A DNA stretch of 64,000 nt from Kribbella capetownensis (GTDB taxonomy: Bacteria > Actinomycetota > Actinomycetes > Propionibacteriales > Kribbellaceae). Positions 1,758 through 43,532 of the stretch are shown here, one piece after another. The stretch is from assembly GCF_004331485.1 (NCBI RefSeq), contig NZ_SJKD01000001.1:1116001-1180000 (forward strand), given 5' to 3'. The notes under the pieces were generated by a model that saw only the letters and a program-made list of their open reading frames with translations, had not been told where the DNA came from and did no database searches. The translations under genes and the position numbers were made by a program. Position 1 is the stretch's first letter. Each line of letters starts with the position of its first letter.

Positions 1758-2870
1758 GTGGGTGACATCAAGGTCGTGCCGGTCATCGGCGGCGTCGTGG
1801 CGGCGCTGTTCCTGCCGCTGCTGATCGTGCTGGCCCTGGTCGTTGTCGGCCTGGCCGGGATGGATACAGCCGAGGCGCAGTGCGATCCGACCGGTCTGAC
1901 AGGCAAGGGCAACCGGCAGCAGGCGTTCAACTTCTTCGTCTCGGCCGGCTACAGCAAGGAGCAGGCGGCTGGGGTGGTCGGCAATCTGATCACTGAATCC
2001 AGCGTCGAGCCTGCGCTGCGGCAGGGCGACGTACCGGGCACGGTCACGCATCCGGCTGACATGGTCGACAGCCCGCTCGGGTGGGGCCTGGTGCAGTGGA
2101 CTCCTGCGGGGAAGCTGATCGAGCCGGCCCGCCAGGCGGGGGTCGCCGACGCGACGATCGAGTCGCTGGAGTTCCAGCTGGACTTTCTCAAGGATCAGCT
2201 CGACGGTGGCGGGCCGGTGCCGGAGAAGGTCGCCGGTGACAAGCTGAAGGTCGCCACGACCGTCGACGAGGCAACGTTTGCCTTCGGCTACCACTTTGAG
2301 CGCTTCGCCGATCGCGACGACCTGGCCGGTGCCAACTGGGCTCAGCGCAAGGCCGATGCCCGGACTGTCCTGGAGCGGTACGGCGATGGCGCCAGTGGTG
2401 GACAGTGCGATGGTGGAATCGTCGAGACCGCGCTGGCCCTTGCCTGGGACACCCCTGGCCACGGCCACGACCCGAAGCCGGCTTATGCAGCGGCCGAGGC
2501 GGCGTACAACGGCTCCAAGGGGTACGACGAGCTGACCGACTGCGGTGTCTTCGTGGCGACCGTGATGGTGATGAGTGGTGCCGACAAGGACTACGTACGC
2601 CGGCTCACCAGTAGCCAGCGGGCTTATGTGCGGGGATCACCGAAGTACGAGGTGTTCGAGGATCTGACCAACGAAGGGCAGTTGCGGCCGGGCGACATCT
2701 TCGTGCACGACGGGCACACGTTCATCTACACCGGCAACTACACGGGCGGCGACGGGAAGACGTACAACGCGGCGTCGGCCTCGCTGACCGAGCATGTGCC
2801 GGAGGCGTCGCGGGTGTACTTCTCCGACTCGCGCGGCCACTACACCGTCGCTCGGAGGTCAGATGACTGA
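1758..2870 (+). CDS. Membrane-anchored wall hydrolase: phage tail-tip lysozyme-like domain plus NlpC/CHAP-like domain
   Basis: The 370-residue product has an N-terminal membrane segment (about residues 8-34). A lysozyme-like domain of the phage tail-tip type follows (FNFFVSAGYSKEQAAGVVGN, with the candidate catalytic Glu80 in LITES). The C-terminal region looks like an NlpC/P60 or CHAP cysteine peptidase, with Cys262 (TDCGVFVATVM) and a downstream His (about 320, in FVHDGHTFIYTG). The role is probably cleavage of both glycan and peptide bonds of peptidoglycan outside the membrane. I chose GTG 1758 because AGGCAGGA lies about 7 nt upstream. A further GTG at 1710 is possible. The gene overlaps the next one by 8 nt, so the two are likely translated together. 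Confidence 0.75.
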   Translation: MGDIKVVPVIGGVVAALFLPLLIVLALVVVGLAGMDTAEAQCDPTGLTGKGNRQQAFNFFVSAGYSKEQAAGVVGNLITESSVEPALRQGDVPGTVTHPADMVDSPLGWGLVQWTPAGKLIEPARQAGVADATIESLEFQLDFLKDQLDGGGPVPEKVAGDKLKVATTVDEATFAFGYHFERFADRDDLAGANWAQRKADARTVLERYGDGASGGQCDGGIVETALALAWDTPGHGHDPKPAYAAAEAAYNGSKGYDELTDCGVFVATVMVMSGADKDYVRRLTSSQRAYVRGSPKYEVFEDLTNEGQLRPGDIFVHDGHTFIYTGNYTGGDGKTYNAASASLTEHVPEASRVYFSDSRGHYTVARRSDD

Positions 2871-3459
2871 GAAGTTGTGGATGGTCTTGGGTGTCATCGC
2901 GTTGCTGATCGGTGGCCTCGTGGCGTTTCGCGGGGACGGGGGGCACACGCTCACCATCACGTCGATCCCGAACGACCTCACCCTTACACTCGACGGCCGG
3001 CAGATCCCGGCGAACGGCGACGTTGCGGTGAAGGCGGGCCGGCATACGTTGACCGGTGAGCGGCCCGGGTTCGAGACGTACACCGAGACCGTCGAGGTCC
3101 ACGCGGATGCCAGCTACAAGATGTACCTGTTCGCCGACGACGCCGAGGGCCGTGCCTGGGAGACGGCACATCCTGACCAGGTGCTGGAGACGGAGTCCGA
3201 TGCCGGCCGCCGGTTCGACGAGCTCAATGGCCGGCTCGAGGCGAAGTACCCGCTGCTGCAGGAGCTGCCCTTGGTCGGCCGCGGCTTCACCATCGACCAG
3301 GGCGTCTCCCGGGCTCACCCGGGAGACCCCGAGTACCTCGCCTTCTACATCAGGCTGACCTATCCCGAAGGCCGGAAGAACGCCCACGACTGGCTCACCG
3401 GCCACGGGTACAACCCCGACGACCTCGAGCTCATCTACACGGTCATGCGGGGAGGATGA
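2863..3459 (+). CDS. Membrane-anchored PEGA-domain protein
   Basis: This 198-residue protein starts at ATG 2863 with a strong GGAGG 5 nt upstream, inside the end of the preceding hydrolase gene. Residues about 5-22 form one membrane segment. A PEGA beta-domain follows (about 28-90: LTITSIPNDLTLTLDGRQIP, then GRHTLTGERPGFETYTETV), a fold usually exposed on the outer surface and linked to surface-layer or wall proteins. The C-terminal 100 residues (LLQELPLVGRGFTIDQG, NAHDWLTGHGYNPDDLELIY) resemble nothing I can name. Tight coupling to the wall hydrolase suggests that the two act together at the envelope. Confidence 0.7.
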   Translation: MTEKLWMVLGVIALLIGGLVAFRGDGGHTLTITSIPNDLTLTLDGRQIPANGDVAVKAGRHTLTGERPGFETYTETVEVHADASYKMYLFADDAEGRAWETAHPDQVLETESDAGRRFDELNGRLEAKYPLLQELPLVGRGFTIDQGVSRAHPGDPEYLAFYIRLTYPEGRKNAHDWLTGHGYNPDDLELIYTVMRGG

Positions 3460-15643: not shown

Positions 15644-15734
15644 CCATTTGAGCGGATATCCCTCCAAATGGCCCCTTGTCTGCTCGTAATTCGGAGAGAG
15701 AAGGGGCGAGTCGAGGGGTTATCCGTTCAAATGG
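15644..15734. repeat. 91-bp extragenic palindrome, copy 1
   Basis: The element folds on itself in one register over its full 91 bp (position i with 92-i). The outer arm ATTTGAGCGGATATCCC pairs with its mate near 15716-15732. The inner arm GCCCCTTGTCTGCTC pairs, with a few mismatches, with the region 15693-15707. A second copy of the same length and outer arms is at 41552-41642. It lies downstream of the EamA gene and before a G-rich tract. Confidence 0.85.
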
Positions 15735-27898: not shown

Positions 27899-28588
27899 GT
27901 GGATCCACGGTTCGACCTGCCGCTGTACACACGTGCCGAGGTGGCGCTCCAACTCGGGCTGCCCGCGACGACGCTCGGGGACTGGTTGCGGTCGGGAGCG
28001 CTGGAGGCACGCAGCGGTGGACGCGGGGAGCCGACGATCACCTTCGCCGGGCTGGTCGAGACGCACATGCTGCGACAGCTCAGGTACGCCGGGTTGTCGC
28101 TGCAGGCGATCGGTGAAGCGGCAGTCGCCCTGCGGTCCCGCGCCGGACGGCACTATCCGCTGGCGTGGTCCGGGCTGGCGCACGACGGCCGGGATCTGCT
28201 GATCGAGATCGCCGCCGAGGGTCGCGAACAGGGCTGGGAACGCCTCCGCGACAGCCAAGGCGGCCTGCCCGGCGTACTGCGCCGCGGATCGGCCGCGATC
28301 GGCTGGTCCGACGACGGGTACGCCGGAACGCTGCGGCTGGTGATCTACCACGACGTGGATGTCGTCGTGGATCCGGCACGAGCCGGCGGGCAGCCGCTCG
28401 TCGAGGGGTCCGAGGTCCGCGTCGAGGACGTCATCGATCGGGTCCGCACCGGGGCGACGTACCGCGAGATCGCAGCCAAGTTCAACCTCGAAGACTTCGA
28501 GGTGGAGGCGTTGGTCCGACCTCACATCCGCCCACCCGCCTTCCGCAAGGCCAGCCACCCACGATCCCAGGCCGACGTACTCCTCTAA
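27899..28588 (+). CDS. MerR-like HTH plus DUF433 protein
   Basis: The 229-residue protein starts with a winged-helix segment like MerR (LYTRAEVALQLGLPATTLGD). The middle region is of unknown fold, and a C-terminal DUF433 segment follows (about 165-205: GSEVRVEDVIDRVRTGATYR). DUF433 domains occur in antitoxins paired with PIN-like DUF5615 toxins, but no such toxin follows here. GTG 27899 has GAGGTGAG upstream. The gene is divergent from the leader peptide and DUF664 gene. A regulator or an orphan antitoxin are both possible. Confidence 0.7.
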   Translation: MDPRFDLPLYTRAEVALQLGLPATTLGDWLRSGALEARSGGRGEPTITFAGLVETHMLRQLRYAGLSLQAIGEAAVALRSRAGRHYPLAWSGLAHDGRDLLIEIAAEGREQGWERLRDSQGGLPGVLRRGSAAIGWSDDGYAGTLRLVIYHDVDVVVDPARAGGQPLVEGSEVRVEDVIDRVRTGATYREIAAKFNLEDFEVEALVRPHIRPPAFRKASHPRSQADVLL

Positions 28589-28589
28589 C

Positions 28590-28671
28590 GACAGGAGGTA
28601 GTCGGCTCCGAGCACGGCCTTCCGCCTGAGCATCCGGGTGGGACGACCACAGGAGGCGACTACCTCCTGTC
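28590..28671. repeat. Long-loop inverted repeat between convergent genes
   Basis: GACAGGAGGTAGTCG (28590-28604) is perfectly complementary to 28657-28671, with 52 nt between. A further AGGAGG lies at 28651 and another at 28675. It is just past the stop of the DUF433 gene and before the stop of paaK, so it may end transcription from both sides. Confidence 0.6.
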
Positions 28672-28681
28672 CTTAGGAGGT

Positions 28682-39793: not shown

Positions 39794-41428
39794 GTGACCA
39801 AGTCACCACGAGGCCGGGACGGACGGCGCAGCCACCTGCGGCTGGTCGATTCGGCGCCGGGCCCGACCCACGGACCCACGGCTGGTGTCGACGTCGACAC
39901 CACGCCGAGCGTCGCCGTGCTGGAAACCCTGCTGGAAACGCTCTCCCTGGACCTGGCCGCCGCGCCGCCGGCGCTGCACCCGGTGATCGCCGAGGCCTCC
40001 GTCGCGCGGTCCGCGGCGATGCTCGCCGACCAGCTCTGGCCGGCCGGAAGGCCGGACGAGATCGGCGAGGTCGAGCGGTTCTTCTGGGCCGATGCCGCGC
40101 GGGTGCTCGGTGAGCGCCGCGACCTCGAATCCTTTGTCCTGCTGACGAGTCTGGCCCGCACGGTCGGTCCGGCCGGGCGGTTGCCGCTGCAGCGGGCACA
40201 CCTGTCCCGGCTCCGCACCGAGGCCGAGGTGCCGGAGTGGGTGACCCGGATCGCCGGCTTCCGGCTGACCAGCGCGATCGTGTCCGAGGACATCAGCGGT
40301 GACGGGCTGAGCGTCGTACTGGACTACGACGACGACCACCATCCGCACACCGTGGTGGTGTTCATCGACAACAACATCGGCGCGATCGTGAAGGACGTGT
40401 TCGTCGGACCGCCGGTGGACCGGGTGCTGGAGGCGTACCAGCGCGGTGGCCGGGTGACGATCCGGTCGGTCCGCCCGCCGACCGCGGCCGGGATCATCCT
40501 GCAGGCGCTCGGCGAGACCAACGACTACGACGATCCGCCGGTCAGCGAGGACTTCGAGTTCTTCTCGGCCCTGCTGGTGAACCGGCTGACCCAGTTGCCG
40601 GAACGCCCGATCCGGCCTCCCGTTCGCCCGCTGCTCTCCCCGCGGCAGCGCGATCAGTTGGTCGACGATTTCCTCGGGTCGCCGTACGGCGCGGGCCTGT
40701 CCGGCGACGCGGCGGACATCGTGCGGCTGTGGATCGACCATGCGGTCGACCACACCGTCGGCGGTCCGCTGCGCGTGAGCGCCGTACTGGTCGAGCTGTT
40801 CCTGGCGCACTGGCTGCCCCGGAAGGTGCTTGCCGACAGCACCTACTTCGAGGCCGTGCCGGTGGTGGTCAAAGCCTGGCTGGGATTCGCGGGGGATCGG
40901 ACCCAGTTGGCGCTGGACGCCATCGATGAGGCTGTCGACGCGGTGGACGTGTGGACACCCGCCCTGGAGGCCGCGGCGATGGTCGACCCGGTCGGCTCGA
41001 AACCGGGCGAGCGGGTGTTCCTCGACGACACCACCAATGACCTCGAGGACGCCTACCGCGCCCTGTCCGGTCTCGGCTCACCGCCACAGCCCGATCTGCA
41101 CGGCCTGGACAAGTCCCAGGCCGCCACCTTGTCCGTCCTCGCCCCGCACGCCTGGCTGATGGCCGGCGAAACCTTGGGCAACGCCTACGCTCCCGACGCC
41201 TTCGACATCGCCGAGCGCCTGGTCCGCGAGGCCCCCGACCTGCTCGCCAAGGCCCGCCTGTCCACTTGGCCGCGCGCCATCGTCTGGCTCCTGGCCCACC
41301 GCCACCGCCTCGTCGGCCCCGGCGAACCCCTCACCCCCTACGCCCTCGCCGCCGACCTCTCCTCATCCCCCGCCACCCTCCGCAAAACCGCCAAACTCCT
41401 CACCGACACCCTGGTCCTACCCCGCTGA
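39794..41428 (+). CDS. Large soluble actinobacterial protein of unknown function
   Basis: The 544-residue protein has no signal peptide or membrane segment. The N-terminal 60 residues are low in structure. The middle (about 140-230) is beta-rich with an acidic strand (VVLDYDDDHHPHTVVVFIDN). The C-terminal part is helical and ends with a helix-turn-helix-like PYALAADLSSSPATLRKTAKLL. I do not recognise the family and give no function. GTG 39794 is the most likely start. It is preceded by a TAATGT box. The gene stands alone and ends before a low-complexity tract. Confidence 0.6.
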   Translation: MTKSPRGRDGRRSHLRLVDSAPGPTHGPTAGVDVDTTPSVAVLETLLETLSLDLAAAPPALHPVIAEASVARSAAMLADQLWPAGRPDEIGEVERFFWADAARVLGERRDLESFVLLTSLARTVGPAGRLPLQRAHLSRLRTEAEVPEWVTRIAGFRLTSAIVSEDISGDGLSVVLDYDDDHHPHTVVVFIDNNIGAIVKDVFVGPPVDRVLEAYQRGGRVTIRSVRPPTAAGIILQALGETNDYDDPPVSEDFEFFSALLVNRLTQLPERPIRPPVRPLLSPRQRDQLVDDFLGSPYGAGLSGDAADIVRLWIDHAVDHTVGGPLRVSAVLVELFLAHWLPRKVLADSTYFEAVPVVVKAWLGFAGDRTQLALDAIDEAVDAVDVWTPALEAAAMVDPVGSKPGERVFLDDTTNDLEDAYRALSGLGSPPQPDLHGLDKSQAATLSVLAPHAWLMAGETLGNAYAPDAFDIAERLVREAPDLLAKARLSTWPRAIVWLLAHRHRLVGPGEPLTPYALAADLSSSPATLRKTAKLLTDTLVLPR

Positions 41429-41431
41429 TCA

Positions 41432-41540
41432 CACCCCGCCGTCCGCACCCACCCCGCCGTCCCCGCACCCCGCCGTCCCTGCACCCCGCCGTCCCCCGCC
41501 GGCCCGCCACCCCGCCGGCCCGCCACCCCGCCCGCGCCGG
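41432..41540 (+). repeat. C-rich tandem low-complexity tract
   Basis: CACCCCGCCGTCC occurs about four times with small changes, followed by CCACCCCGCCGGCCCG twice. It is non-coding and lies right before the second 91-bp palindrome, in mirror arrangement to the G-rich tract beside copy 1. The interval 41429-41753 has no gene. Confidence 0.7.
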
Positions 41541-41551
41541 TTCCGCGAGTG

Positions 41552-41642
41552 GCATTTGAACGGATATCCCCTCGCGTTGCCGGTTCTCCCCCCGTGATAC
41601 GAGCTGAGAACCGGCAACGGCAAGGGATATCCGCTCAAATGC
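41552..41642. repeat. 91-bp extragenic palindrome, copy 2
   Basis: Position i pairs with 92-i in one register. The outer arm ATTTGAACGGATATCCC has its mate at about 41624-41640. The inner arm CGTTGCCGGTTCTC pairs perfectly with GAGAACCGGCAACG. Length and outer arms match copy 1 at 15644-15734, while the inner arms differ. Confidence 0.88.
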
Positions 41643-41753
41643 CTGAAGTCAGGGTGGGACGGGTGGATCCCGGATCCCGGATCTTGGATGGCGGGCCTGC
41701 CCGCAAGGCGGGGCTGGGGCTGGTGTGCTTGTGCCGAGGCGGACAATGGCGGC

Positions 41754-43532
41754 ATGCATGTGCGTGCGCCGGAGCTCAAGGGTCGTGGGTGGTTGAACAC
41801 CGGAGGGCGGGAGCTGTCGCTCGCGGACTTCCGGGGGCGGTTCCTGTTGCTGGACTTCTGGACGTTCTGCTGCATCAACTGCCTGCATGTGCTCGACGAG
41901 TTGCGGCCGCTGGAGGAGAAGTACGGCGACGCGCTGGTGATCGTGGGCGTGCATTCGCCGAAGTTCGCGCACGAGGGCGAGGAAGTGGCGGTCCGGTCCG
42001 CGGTCGAGCGGTACGAAGTGGGCCACCCGGTGCTCGACGACCCGGAGCTGGTGACGTGGCAGAACTACACCGCCCGGGCCTGGCCGACGCTGGTCCTGGT
42101 CGACCCGAACGGGTACATCGTCGCGCAGTACTCCGGTGAAGGACACGCGCACGCACTCGATGCCCAGCTGGCCGAGCTGATCGAGGAGCACGAGCGCGCC
42201 GGCACACTGACCCGAGGCAAGTCGCCGTACGTCGCTCCCGCGCCGGAGCCCACCGACCTCCGCTTCCCGGCCAAGGTCGTTGCCCTCGACAAGGGCTTCC
42301 TGGTGGCCGACGCCGGGAACCACAGCATCGTCGAGCTCGCCGAGGACGCGACCACCGTCGTACGCCGGATCGGCACCGGGCAGCGCGGATTCGCCGACGG
42401 CGACGCACAGGCCAGCTTCTCCGAGCCGAACGGGCTGACGCGGCTCCCGGCCGACGTCGCGACCAAGCTCGGGTACGACGTCGTCGTCGCCGACACGGTC
42501 AACCACGCGCTCCGCGGCATCGACCTGGCGACCGGCCGGGTCACGACCCTCGTCGGCACCGGCAAGCAGTGGATGGACGGCGACGGGACCGACGTACTGA
42601 GCTCGCCCTGGGACGTCGCGTGGTGGCAGGACAAGGTCTGGATCGCGATGGCCGGAGTCCACCAGTTGTGGACGTACGACCCGTTCACCAAGGTGACGGA
42701 GGTTGCCGCCGGCACCACGAACGAGGGTCTGAAGGACGGCGCGCCGGCCGAGGCGTGGTTCGCGCAGACCAGCGGCCTGGCAGCGGACGGGGACCGGCTC
42801 TGGCTGGCTGATTCCGAGATCTCCGCGCTGCGCTGGATCGACACCGAGGTCCACACCGCGGTTGGCACCGGCCTGTTCGACTTCGGCCTGCGCGACGGCA
42901 AGGCGAGCGAAGCCCTGCTCCAGCACCCGCTCGGCGTGACCGCTCTCCCGGACGGCACGATCGCGATCGCCGACACCTACAACGGCGCCGTACGCCGCTA
43001 TGACCCACGCACCGACGTGGTCGACACCATGGCCACCGGGCTGGCCGAGCCCAGCGGTGCCGTTGTCATGGGCAACGAACTGCTGGTGGTCGAGTCGGCG
43101 GCCCACCGGCTGACCCGGATCCCGCTCGGCGCGTCGGCGAAGGTGGACGAGTTCAGCACCAGGACCCAGCGGCCGCCGATGGAGGTCAGGGGTGGGGACG
43201 TGACGCTGGAGGTCGTCTTCACACCACCGCCGGGGCAGAAGCTGGACGATCGGTACGGACCGTCGACCCGGCTGCTGGTGTCCTCGACACCGGAGAACCT
43301 GCTACGTGAAGGCGCCGGCGACTCCACCGAGCTGAGCCGCCGGCTCGTCATCGACGAGCGGGTCGGGGACGGCGTACTGCACGTCGCCGTCCAGGCGGCC
43401 TCGTGTGACGACTCGGCCGAGGTCGAGTTCCCGGCCTGTCACATGCACCGCCAGGACTGGGGCGTCCCGATCCGGGTCACCCCGGACGGCGCCGCCCGCC
43501 TCGAACTGGTCCTGTCGGGCGCCACCGTCTAA
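41754..43532 (+). CDS. Thioredoxin-like plus NHL-repeat protein (NHLRC2-like)
   Basis: The 592-residue protein begins with a thioredoxin fold of the TlpA type (LSLADFRGRFLLLDFWTF, then the redox pair Cys40-x-x-Cys43 in CCINC). A six-bladed NHL/beta-propeller domain follows (about 165-480), and a C-terminal beta domain (about 480-592) with CHMHRQDWGVP. No signal peptide is visible, so it is probably cytosolic, unlike most TlpA proteins. The architecture matches NHLRC2-type proteins, whose function is unclear. ATG 41754 is chosen as the first start before VRAPEL. Confidence 0.8.
   Translation: MHVRAPELKGRGWLNTGGRELSLADFRGRFLLLDFWTFCCINCLHVLDELRPLEEKYGDALVIVGVHSPKFAHEGEEVAVRSAVERYEVGHPVLDDPELVTWQNYTARAWPTLVLVDPNGYIVAQYSGEGHAHALDAQLAELIEEHERAGTLTRGKSPYVAPAPEPTDLRFPAKVVALDKGFLVADAGNHSIVELAEDATTVVRRIGTGQRGFADGDAQASFSEPNGLTRLPADVATKLGYDVVVADTVNHALRGIDLATGRVTTLVGTGKQWMDGDGTDVLSSPWDVAWWQDKVWIAMAGVHQLWTYDPFTKVTEVAAGTTNEGLKDGAPAEAWFAQTSGLAADGDRLWLADSEISALRWIDTEVHTAVGTGLFDFGLRDGKASEALLQHPLGVTALPDGTIAIADTYNGAVRRYDPRTDVVDTMATGLAEPSGAVVMGNELLVVESAAHRLTRIPLGASAKVDEFSTRTQRPPMEVRGGDVTLEVVFTPPPGQKLDDRYGPSTRLLVSSTPENLLREGAGDSTELSRRLVIDERVGDGVLHVAVQAASCDDSAEVEFPACHMHRQDWGVPIRVTPDGAARLELVLSGATV

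Follow-up and report, generated by a model that had tools for sequence, protein, structure and literature searches.

Kribbella capetownensis is a soil bacterium. In the stretch of its genome analysed here (64,000 nucleotides; the window), a 91-bp palindrome stands between two genes read in the same direction, and the question is what such an element does at this place. The initial annotation had offered three roles, namely, ending transcription, protecting mRNA 3' ends or marking a recombination site. We compared the element with its copies in the own genome (G000, the source of the window) and in the other Kribbella genomes (G001-G037; L numbers denote loci), using a covariance model, R1, trained on 20 own-genome copies. 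The features of the locus are listed below. The element is given no strand because it is a palindrome.

39794-41428, + strand: upstream neighbour gene, 544 aa, outside the element; the same gene lies upstream in 25 of 29 relatives
41429-41551, + strand: C-rich tract with CACCCCGCCGTCC-like repeats, separating the upstream gene from the element
41552-41642, no strand: the 91-bp palindromic element in question; R1 98.1 bits on one strand and 94.6 bits on the other; included in the 20-copy training set
41562-41569, + strand: conserved box 1, GGATATCC; element columns 11-18; G11, G12, C17 and C18 invariant in 20 copies
41575-41588, + strand: inner left arm, CGTTGCCGGTTCTC; contains conserved box 2, GGTTCTC
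41606-41619, + strand: inner right arm, GAGAACCGGCAACG; pairs with CGTTGCCGGTTCTC
41625-41632, + strand: mirrored box 1, GGATATCC; columns 74-81; G74, G75, C80 and C81 invariant in 20 copies
41757-43532, + strand: downstream neighbour gene, thioredoxin/NHL-like by eye; present in 38 of 38 genomes and used as the control gene

The annotated hairpin was confirmed as nearly perfect. The inner arms form 14 bp without a mismatch and enclose a 17-nt loop, and the stem is closed by 18 outer pairs (8 + 10). As RNA, the element has a minimum free energy of -58.2 kcal/mol compared to -24.0 +/- 3.3 kcal/mol for 200 dinucleotide shuffles (z = -10.4), none of which was as good. Its placement 3' of the gene that stops at 41428 was also correct. 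The Rfam search of the window returned only a tRNA, and the element matched no family at gathering scores. No terminator-like site (GC-rich stem followed by a T tract) was found in 41300-41900.

The palindrome belongs to a dispersed family

The window contains three copies of the 91-bp family, one of which (883-973) was absent from the initial annotation. The two further copies are as follows.

15644-15734, no strand: second copy, 88.9 bits, between convergent genes (L019)
883-973, no strand: third, diverged copy in another sequence dialect, 49.9 bits, E about 1e-11; inverted repeat I3

Copies are dispersed throughout the own genome. A strict pattern based on the element ends gave 11 matches there and its reversed control gave none, while blastn detected 20 distinct places (hand count, 30 rows). 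R1 found at least 36 places (hand count, 70 rows); this and the other copy numbers are lower bounds, as the best 114-150 of about 1400-2200 candidates were scored per genome, and 883-973 is among those missed. At E <= 1e-3, R1 matched 35 of the 38 Kribbella genomes, with no match in G011, G028 and G037. Order-wide, at E <= 1e-5, matches were obtained in 40 of 147 genomes, which comprised 34 Kribbella and 6 genomes from one genus of another family. In G030, which is assembled as one contig, a hand count gave at least 40 places with strong matches (58 bits or more) and 5 with weaker ones.

The element length is nearly fixed at 91 bp and its sequence varies from species to species, so that a species-specific sequence is carried on a conserved architecture: the divergent copies retain the length, the conserved boxes and the pairing of the outer arms. 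The consensus starts with GCATTTGA/CCATTT. In G030 it reads as three successive palindromes (P-Q-P) whose dyad centres lie at 14.5, 46 and 77.5. These centres are 31.5 bp apart, or about three helical turns (read from the sequences by hand). The conserved boxes, GGnnnnCC (11-18 and 74-81) and TTnT (33-36) with its mirror, are set in variable stems.

Covariation was tested by shuffling whole arms among 37 copies from G030 and 20 from G000; L115 (92 nt) and the tandem copies L105b and L109b were excluded. The outer arms covary (z of 6.5 in G030 and 2.9 in G000) and so do the inner Q arms (3.2 and 2.4), whereas the middle segment (columns 16-28 with 64-76) showed no covariation (-1.3 and -1.4). 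Part of the element therefore seems to depend on a foldback form, and the rest on specific sequence boxes. The per-pair count on the G000 alignment (A1) gave a weaker signal: its covariation score was reached by 7 of 500 shuffles; doubly changed pairs were not in excess on it (476 of 500 shuffles were as high). A reading of the element as RNA only was rejected: the pairing is kept in the outer and inner stems and not in the middle segment, and RNAalifold gave just 14 pairs with a small covariation term. Local folding into three hairpins (P-Q-P) was weak in G030 (z of 1.8 and 2.6) and absent in G000.

At L105 and L109 of G030, element and flanks are duplicated in tandem, at distances of 224 and 139 bp. 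Several elements of G001 are close to a contig start (C65, C242, C301, C321 and C506), within about 210 bp of it, as if the hairpin or repeat broke the assembly there.

Sites are filled in some species and empty in others

The upstream gene, in the same direction, precedes the thioredoxin/NHL gene in 25 of 29 relatives; in the other four, the upstream gene was not matched (three) or a contig end interrupts the locus (one). The thioredoxin/NHL gene itself is on the minus strand in 21 of the 30 loci. Among these 25, 23 had no R1 match in the intergene. In 18 of the 23, the gap is 39-91 bp compared to 331 bp in G000, and the other five have gaps of 176-1064 bp with neither an R1 match nor a strong palindrome. 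The two remaining relatives, G007 (L070) and G008 (L073), carry a 90-91-bp element in this intergene upstream of the thioredoxin/NHL gene. Both differ in sequence from the window element, so some species have had this spot filled, and by elements of more than one dialect. The recurrence could also reflect a favoured insertion spot rather than conversion. The element is not present unvaried at this site in all relatives, and among the proposals of the initial annotation the hint at a mobile or recombination element has the best support.

Compared to G015 and G035, the extra DNA at the window site of G000 is longer than the palindrome: the C-rich tract, the element and ~100 bp beyond are largely missing from those two genomes. 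Filled sites usually exceed the empty ones by more than 91 bp. At L017, about 291 bp are extra in G000 and the genes abut in G015; at L145 the extra DNA is about 590 bp and includes two elements; at L031 it is several hundred bp in G000 and aligns poorly. At L169, about 110 bp are present in G015 with GGCCGGC (7 bp) at both edges, which suggests a 7-bp direct repeat, and it was the only site among those compared to do so.

G000 and G015 share nine sites among the 32 and 25 loci compared, and the sequence changes at such sites. In two of the eight pairs shown (L155/L165 and L157/L177), the elements are roughly as alike as their flanks; in the remaining pairs, divergence is greater in the element than in the flanking DNA, as judged by eye. 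Both genomes also have an older, degenerate element at L180.

A solitary nuclease-like gene is flanked by the palindromes

Three pairs of elements, all outside the window, lie about 1.1 kb apart (L020 in G000; L143 and L144 in G015), and each pair encloses one gene of the same family. In L020, the gene occupies 2098-3045 on the minus strand. The gene is solitary, and its product of ~315 aa combines an AbiEi_4 winged helix with a Vsr/PD-(D/E)XK-like part. PF13338 (AbiEi_4) was above the cut-off in L020, L144, L143, L235, L230 and L214 (E of 2e-10 to 1e-5) and just below it in L211. The best PADLOC matches of the N-terminal part were AbiEi models (1e-20 to 2e-18). In relatives, the C-terminal part had weak Pfam similarity to MTES_1575 (E of 0.003-0.006) and DUF559 (0.058), all below the cut-off. 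The MTES_1575 domain is described as a Vsr-fold REase (PMC3710099). From these weak matches and the residue conservation described below, we consider the C-terminal part a putative nuclease. NCBIfam gave no match for three family proteins, and a PDB sequence search gave only chance-level matches (E >= 0.2).

L020 and L144 occupy the same site. One flank is 97% identical over 987 bp. On the other side, the identity is 81% over 2022 bp, a stretch that includes the gene, and the enclosed proteins share 61% identity. The neighbours of L020 are a metallo-beta-lactamase gene on one side and a CRP-like gene (by eye) on the other.

A profile of the protein family (A2) detected it in 38 of 38 genomes, in what we read as three score tiers (T1-T3). 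The flanks were tested at 30 gene loci, the best one from each of 30 genomes. An R1 element adjoins the gene in 28 of these loci and lies on both sides in 23, one side of L205 being lost to a contig end. L208 and L210 lack an R1-type element and L209 has just a weak one. In the control, R1 matched 2 of 29 relatives on the thioredoxin/NHL gene loci with the same 1.5-kb flanks. The element-to-gene spacing is 0-252 bp, and the flanking elements leave too little room for a second gene between them.

The flanking elements also resemble a dispersed copy of the same genome. This resemblance was not reached in any of 5000 label shuffles (z of 5.4, uncorrected for species relatedness). It was scored for 35 of 45 flanking elements, namely those with a dispersed copy in the same genome, L051 and L059 being excluded as gene-flanking. 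The own-genome copy ranked first of 26 for 9 of the 35 and 24th for one. The median number of element rows was 71 in the 27 genomes with a cognate gene and 2 in the 11 without (p of 0.0012); the row counts are lower bounds, and the split was drawn after the flanks had been seen and left out L205. Exceptions, with many elements and no cognate tier-1 gene found, are G001 (at least 114 rows), G030 (at least 89) and G007 (at least 48). Possible reasons are that these genomes have lost the gene, that it went undetected (the G001 assembly has 590 contigs), or that the elements are served by another protein.

A phage origin of the gene was rejected: one query protein had no match among 50,697 phage records (E <= 1e-5), and none was confirmed in viral contigs. 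Four plasmid records matched the family, all at under 60% identity.

Palindromes and catalytic residues in diverged members

We fetched 16 tier-2 and four tier-3 genes. R1 matches were nearly absent from their loci (one locus, L224). The flanks were then scanned for palindromes irrespective of sequence, at a score of 13 or more, which is reached by about 2% of the overlapping and thus non-independent control windows in Kribbella. For T1 (30 loci), a palindrome was found upstream in 19, downstream in 27 and on either side in 30; for T2 (16), in 14, 10 and 16; and for T3 (4), in 0, 2 and 2, respectively. The gene is tightly flanked by palindromes, and these differ between gene lineages, L211 (G030) and L214 (G028) having a common one.

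Outside Kribbella, homologs were present in 12 of 14 genomes, a sample chosen to include the six that matched R1. In the 30 loci from these genera, palindromes were upstream in 25, downstream in 18 and on either side in 28 (hand count), at a level reached by 4.4% of control windows, which overlap. At L232 and L235, the hairpin modules at the two ends are inverted copies of each other (by eye).

Of 80 gene loci, 75 entered the residue comparison; the rest had partial or interrupted reading frames. H87, E211 and E254 are invariant among the 75 aligned homologs, and D243 (71 of 75), D256 (71 of 75) and K260 (69 of 75) are nearly so. The putative catalytic E...D...ExD..K set (E211, D243, E254, D256 and K260) is intact in 30 of 30 T1, 15 of 15 T2 and 24 of 26 members from other genera, and in none of the four T3 members. 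Hence, the catalytic residues are lost in the four examined members that have no upstream palindrome (L227, L228, L229 and L230). Judged from their degraded nuclease residues, these four sampled genes are probably inactive relatives that have been retired or repurposed.

A TTRTCCACA box, which resembles the DnaA box, precedes the gene. With up to one mismatch, it is found 59-62 bp ahead of the start codon in 28 of 29 T1, 15 of 16 T2 and 4 of 4 T3 members (L181-L230). The distance is fixed in 47 of the 49 Kribbella members examined; of 3000 background windows, 40 had the box anywhere. In other genera it occurs near the start in 20 of 30 loci, at varied estimated positions. As it is kept in T3 too, the box may be a promoter or regulatory feature unconnected to mobility.

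A proposed mobile element served by the nuclease-like protein

The association between the palindromes and this gene leads us to propose, with a probability of roughly two in three, that the 91-bp palindrome is a non-autonomous, REP-like mobile element served by the AbiEi_4/nuclease-like protein, which would bind, cut and move it. An autonomous unit would consist of an element, ~60 bp with the TTRTCCACA box, the solitary gene and a second element, together roughly 1.1-1.3 kb. The AbiEi_4 winged helix would bind the palindrome, and the Vsr/PD-(D/E)XK-like part would cut there, in double-stranded DNA, a cruciform or a hairpin. Repair would then copy or move the elements, sometimes with the gene, into intergenic sites.

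More tentatively, and at slightly below even odds, the winged-helix/Vsr-type nuclease and its lineage-specific palindrome could form a selfish pair that represents a new class of prokaryotic mobile elements. Such a pair would spread by cutting palindromes, copying itself into the break and converting older copies at occupied sites, and its expression or timing would be tied to replication via the DnaA-type box at about -60. It would be a double-strand- or cruciform-cutting counterpart of REP-RAYT in several families of the order.

How high-copy bacterial palindromes spread is an open question even for REP/RAYT. The present case adds a second example of dispersed palindromes that are paired with a solitary nuclease-type gene; the host genus is nearly without RAYT, and the many diverged protein-palindrome pairs offer natural experiments on how recognition works. 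A further suggestion is that some of the actinobacterial genes whose name derives from the AbiEi antitoxin domain encode mobile-element proteins and not antitoxins. In the open-access literature, the titles and abstract openings of the top results contained no description of palindromes flanking an AbiEi-type nuclease, so earlier publication is possible; no paper there had 'AbiEi' together with 'DUF559'.

Sites of the copies and alternative explanations

The copies are mostly 3' of genes. Based on crude ORF calls, the 32 G000 loci comprise 20 convergent, 10 tandem and no divergent sites, with one copy inside a called ORF and one unclassed. The 40 G030 copies comprise 10 convergent, 21 tandem and 4 divergent sites, one copy inside an ORF and 4 unclassed; the 131 background gaps of at least 60 bp comprise 22, 70 and 39, respectively. 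Read towards the element, the flanks are C-rich from both sides (skew of -0.36, 120 flanks), compared to -0.02 at other gene 3' ends (91). On the outer flanks of the gene-bearing units, the skew is -0.33 (39 flanks), and this kind of site is common to solo copies and gene units. In G000 and G030 a strong C-to-G skew switch is centred on the element; other gene 3' ends are without such a switch.

A C-rich tract ahead of a hairpin would suit Rho loading. The tract leading into the hairpin from both sides, together with the very stable stem, the covarying outer arms and the excess of convergent and lack of divergent sites in G000, would fit a bidirectional transcription terminator or mRNA 3'-end stabiliser maintained by selection, its likeness to a mobile element being incidental. 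We consider this unlikely, and termination as the primary role was not upheld. No terminator-like site with a T tract was found at the locus, 4 of the 40 G030 copies lie between divergent genes, the element is missing from 23 of the 25 relatives in which the two genes are paired as here, and copies bracket the nuclease-like gene. Termination as a side effect is possible.

The palindromes might instead be operators of the regulon of an AbiEi-like repressor, with the gene-adjacent ones serving autoregulation. AbiEi antitoxins are reported to autoregulate by binding inverted repeats (PMC7319586); the AbiEi_4 domain of the protein and the 31.5-bp spacing of the dyad centres would agree with such a role. 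However, the dispersed copies are mostly 3' of genes and not at promoters, an element or palindrome is also downstream of the gene in many loci, and the nuclease-type residues are strictly conserved, which makes an operator function rather improbable.

A REPIN is composed of a REP, a spacer and an inverted REP. The last alternative is a conventional MITE or REPIN that is mobilised by a DDE or Y1 (RAYT) transposase encoded elsewhere in the genome, with the nuclease-like gene as a passenger. The size, the palindromic ends and the patchy occurrence would suit a MITE, and the P-Q-P layout a REPIN. We consider this very improbable: as to Y1 enzymes, Y1_Tnp was found in just one of 38 Kribbella genomes, and different lineages of the same protein have different palindromes, which would be unlikely for a passenger.

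Comparison with known systems

The proposed mobile element most invites comparison with REP/BIME/REPIN and their RAYT (TnpA-REP), or REPtron. Both are high-copy intergenic palindromes of species-specific sequence that are present or absent between relatives, and in both a solitary nuclease-type gene (predicted to be one here) is flanked by its own palindromes, of which dispersed copies exist. They differ in the enzyme, which is Y1/HUH in the REPtron and an AbiEi_4 winged helix with a Vsr/PD-(D/E)XK-like part here. REPs are defined by a conserved tetranucleotide, mostly GTAG, before a 20-50-nt palindrome (PMC8266576); GTAG is not in the 91-bp consensus, and the unit here is nearly fixed at 91 bp. 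A search for PF01797 (Y1 transposase) in the 38 Kribbella genomes gave no match in G000 and G030 and a single one in G007, and RAYT/REPIN identity was rejected on this count. The match (RAYT/IS200-type; L142, G007:C7:51482-51820) is in a locus where no R1 element was found. Because the enzyme and the GTAG tag differ, our claim is that the 91-bp system works like REP/RAYT, not that it is REP/RAYT.

The AbiE type IV toxin-antitoxin system, in which a gene for the AbiEii nucleotidyltransferase toxin adjoins that of the antitoxin, shares the N-terminal AbiEi match, and known AbiEi is reported to bind inverted repeats (PMC7319586). In contrast, the palindrome-bounded unit has no room for a second gene, the protein has a nuclease-like C-terminal part, and the palindromes are dispersed. 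MITEs of classical insertion sequences are likewise short, non-coding, multi-copy inverted-repeat elements of patchy occurrence. Here, however, the whole length is palindromic with covarying outer arms, the partner gene is no known transposase, and L169 alone among the sites compared had a candidate target duplication.

Free-standing homing endonucleases include Vsr-like and PD-(D/E)XK types. They resemble the present gene in being small, solitary and of nuclease type in intergenic sites, and the L020/L144 pair, with divergent proteins beside one nearly identical flank, is reminiscent of them. They differ in that the gene here is bounded by palindromes that also spread without it.

A second palindrome family in similar sites

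A second family of palindromes, of the GACAGGAGGT...ACCTCCTGTC type (grouped by eye), was observed in the same sort of intergenic sites, often near the 91-bp element. Its members are at 28585-28676 of the window and at L145, L153, L160 and L031. A rough pattern for this family, to which the window copy at 28585-28676 gives no match, occurs 1.2-1.4 times per 10 kb in element loci compared to 0.1-0.3 in gene loci.
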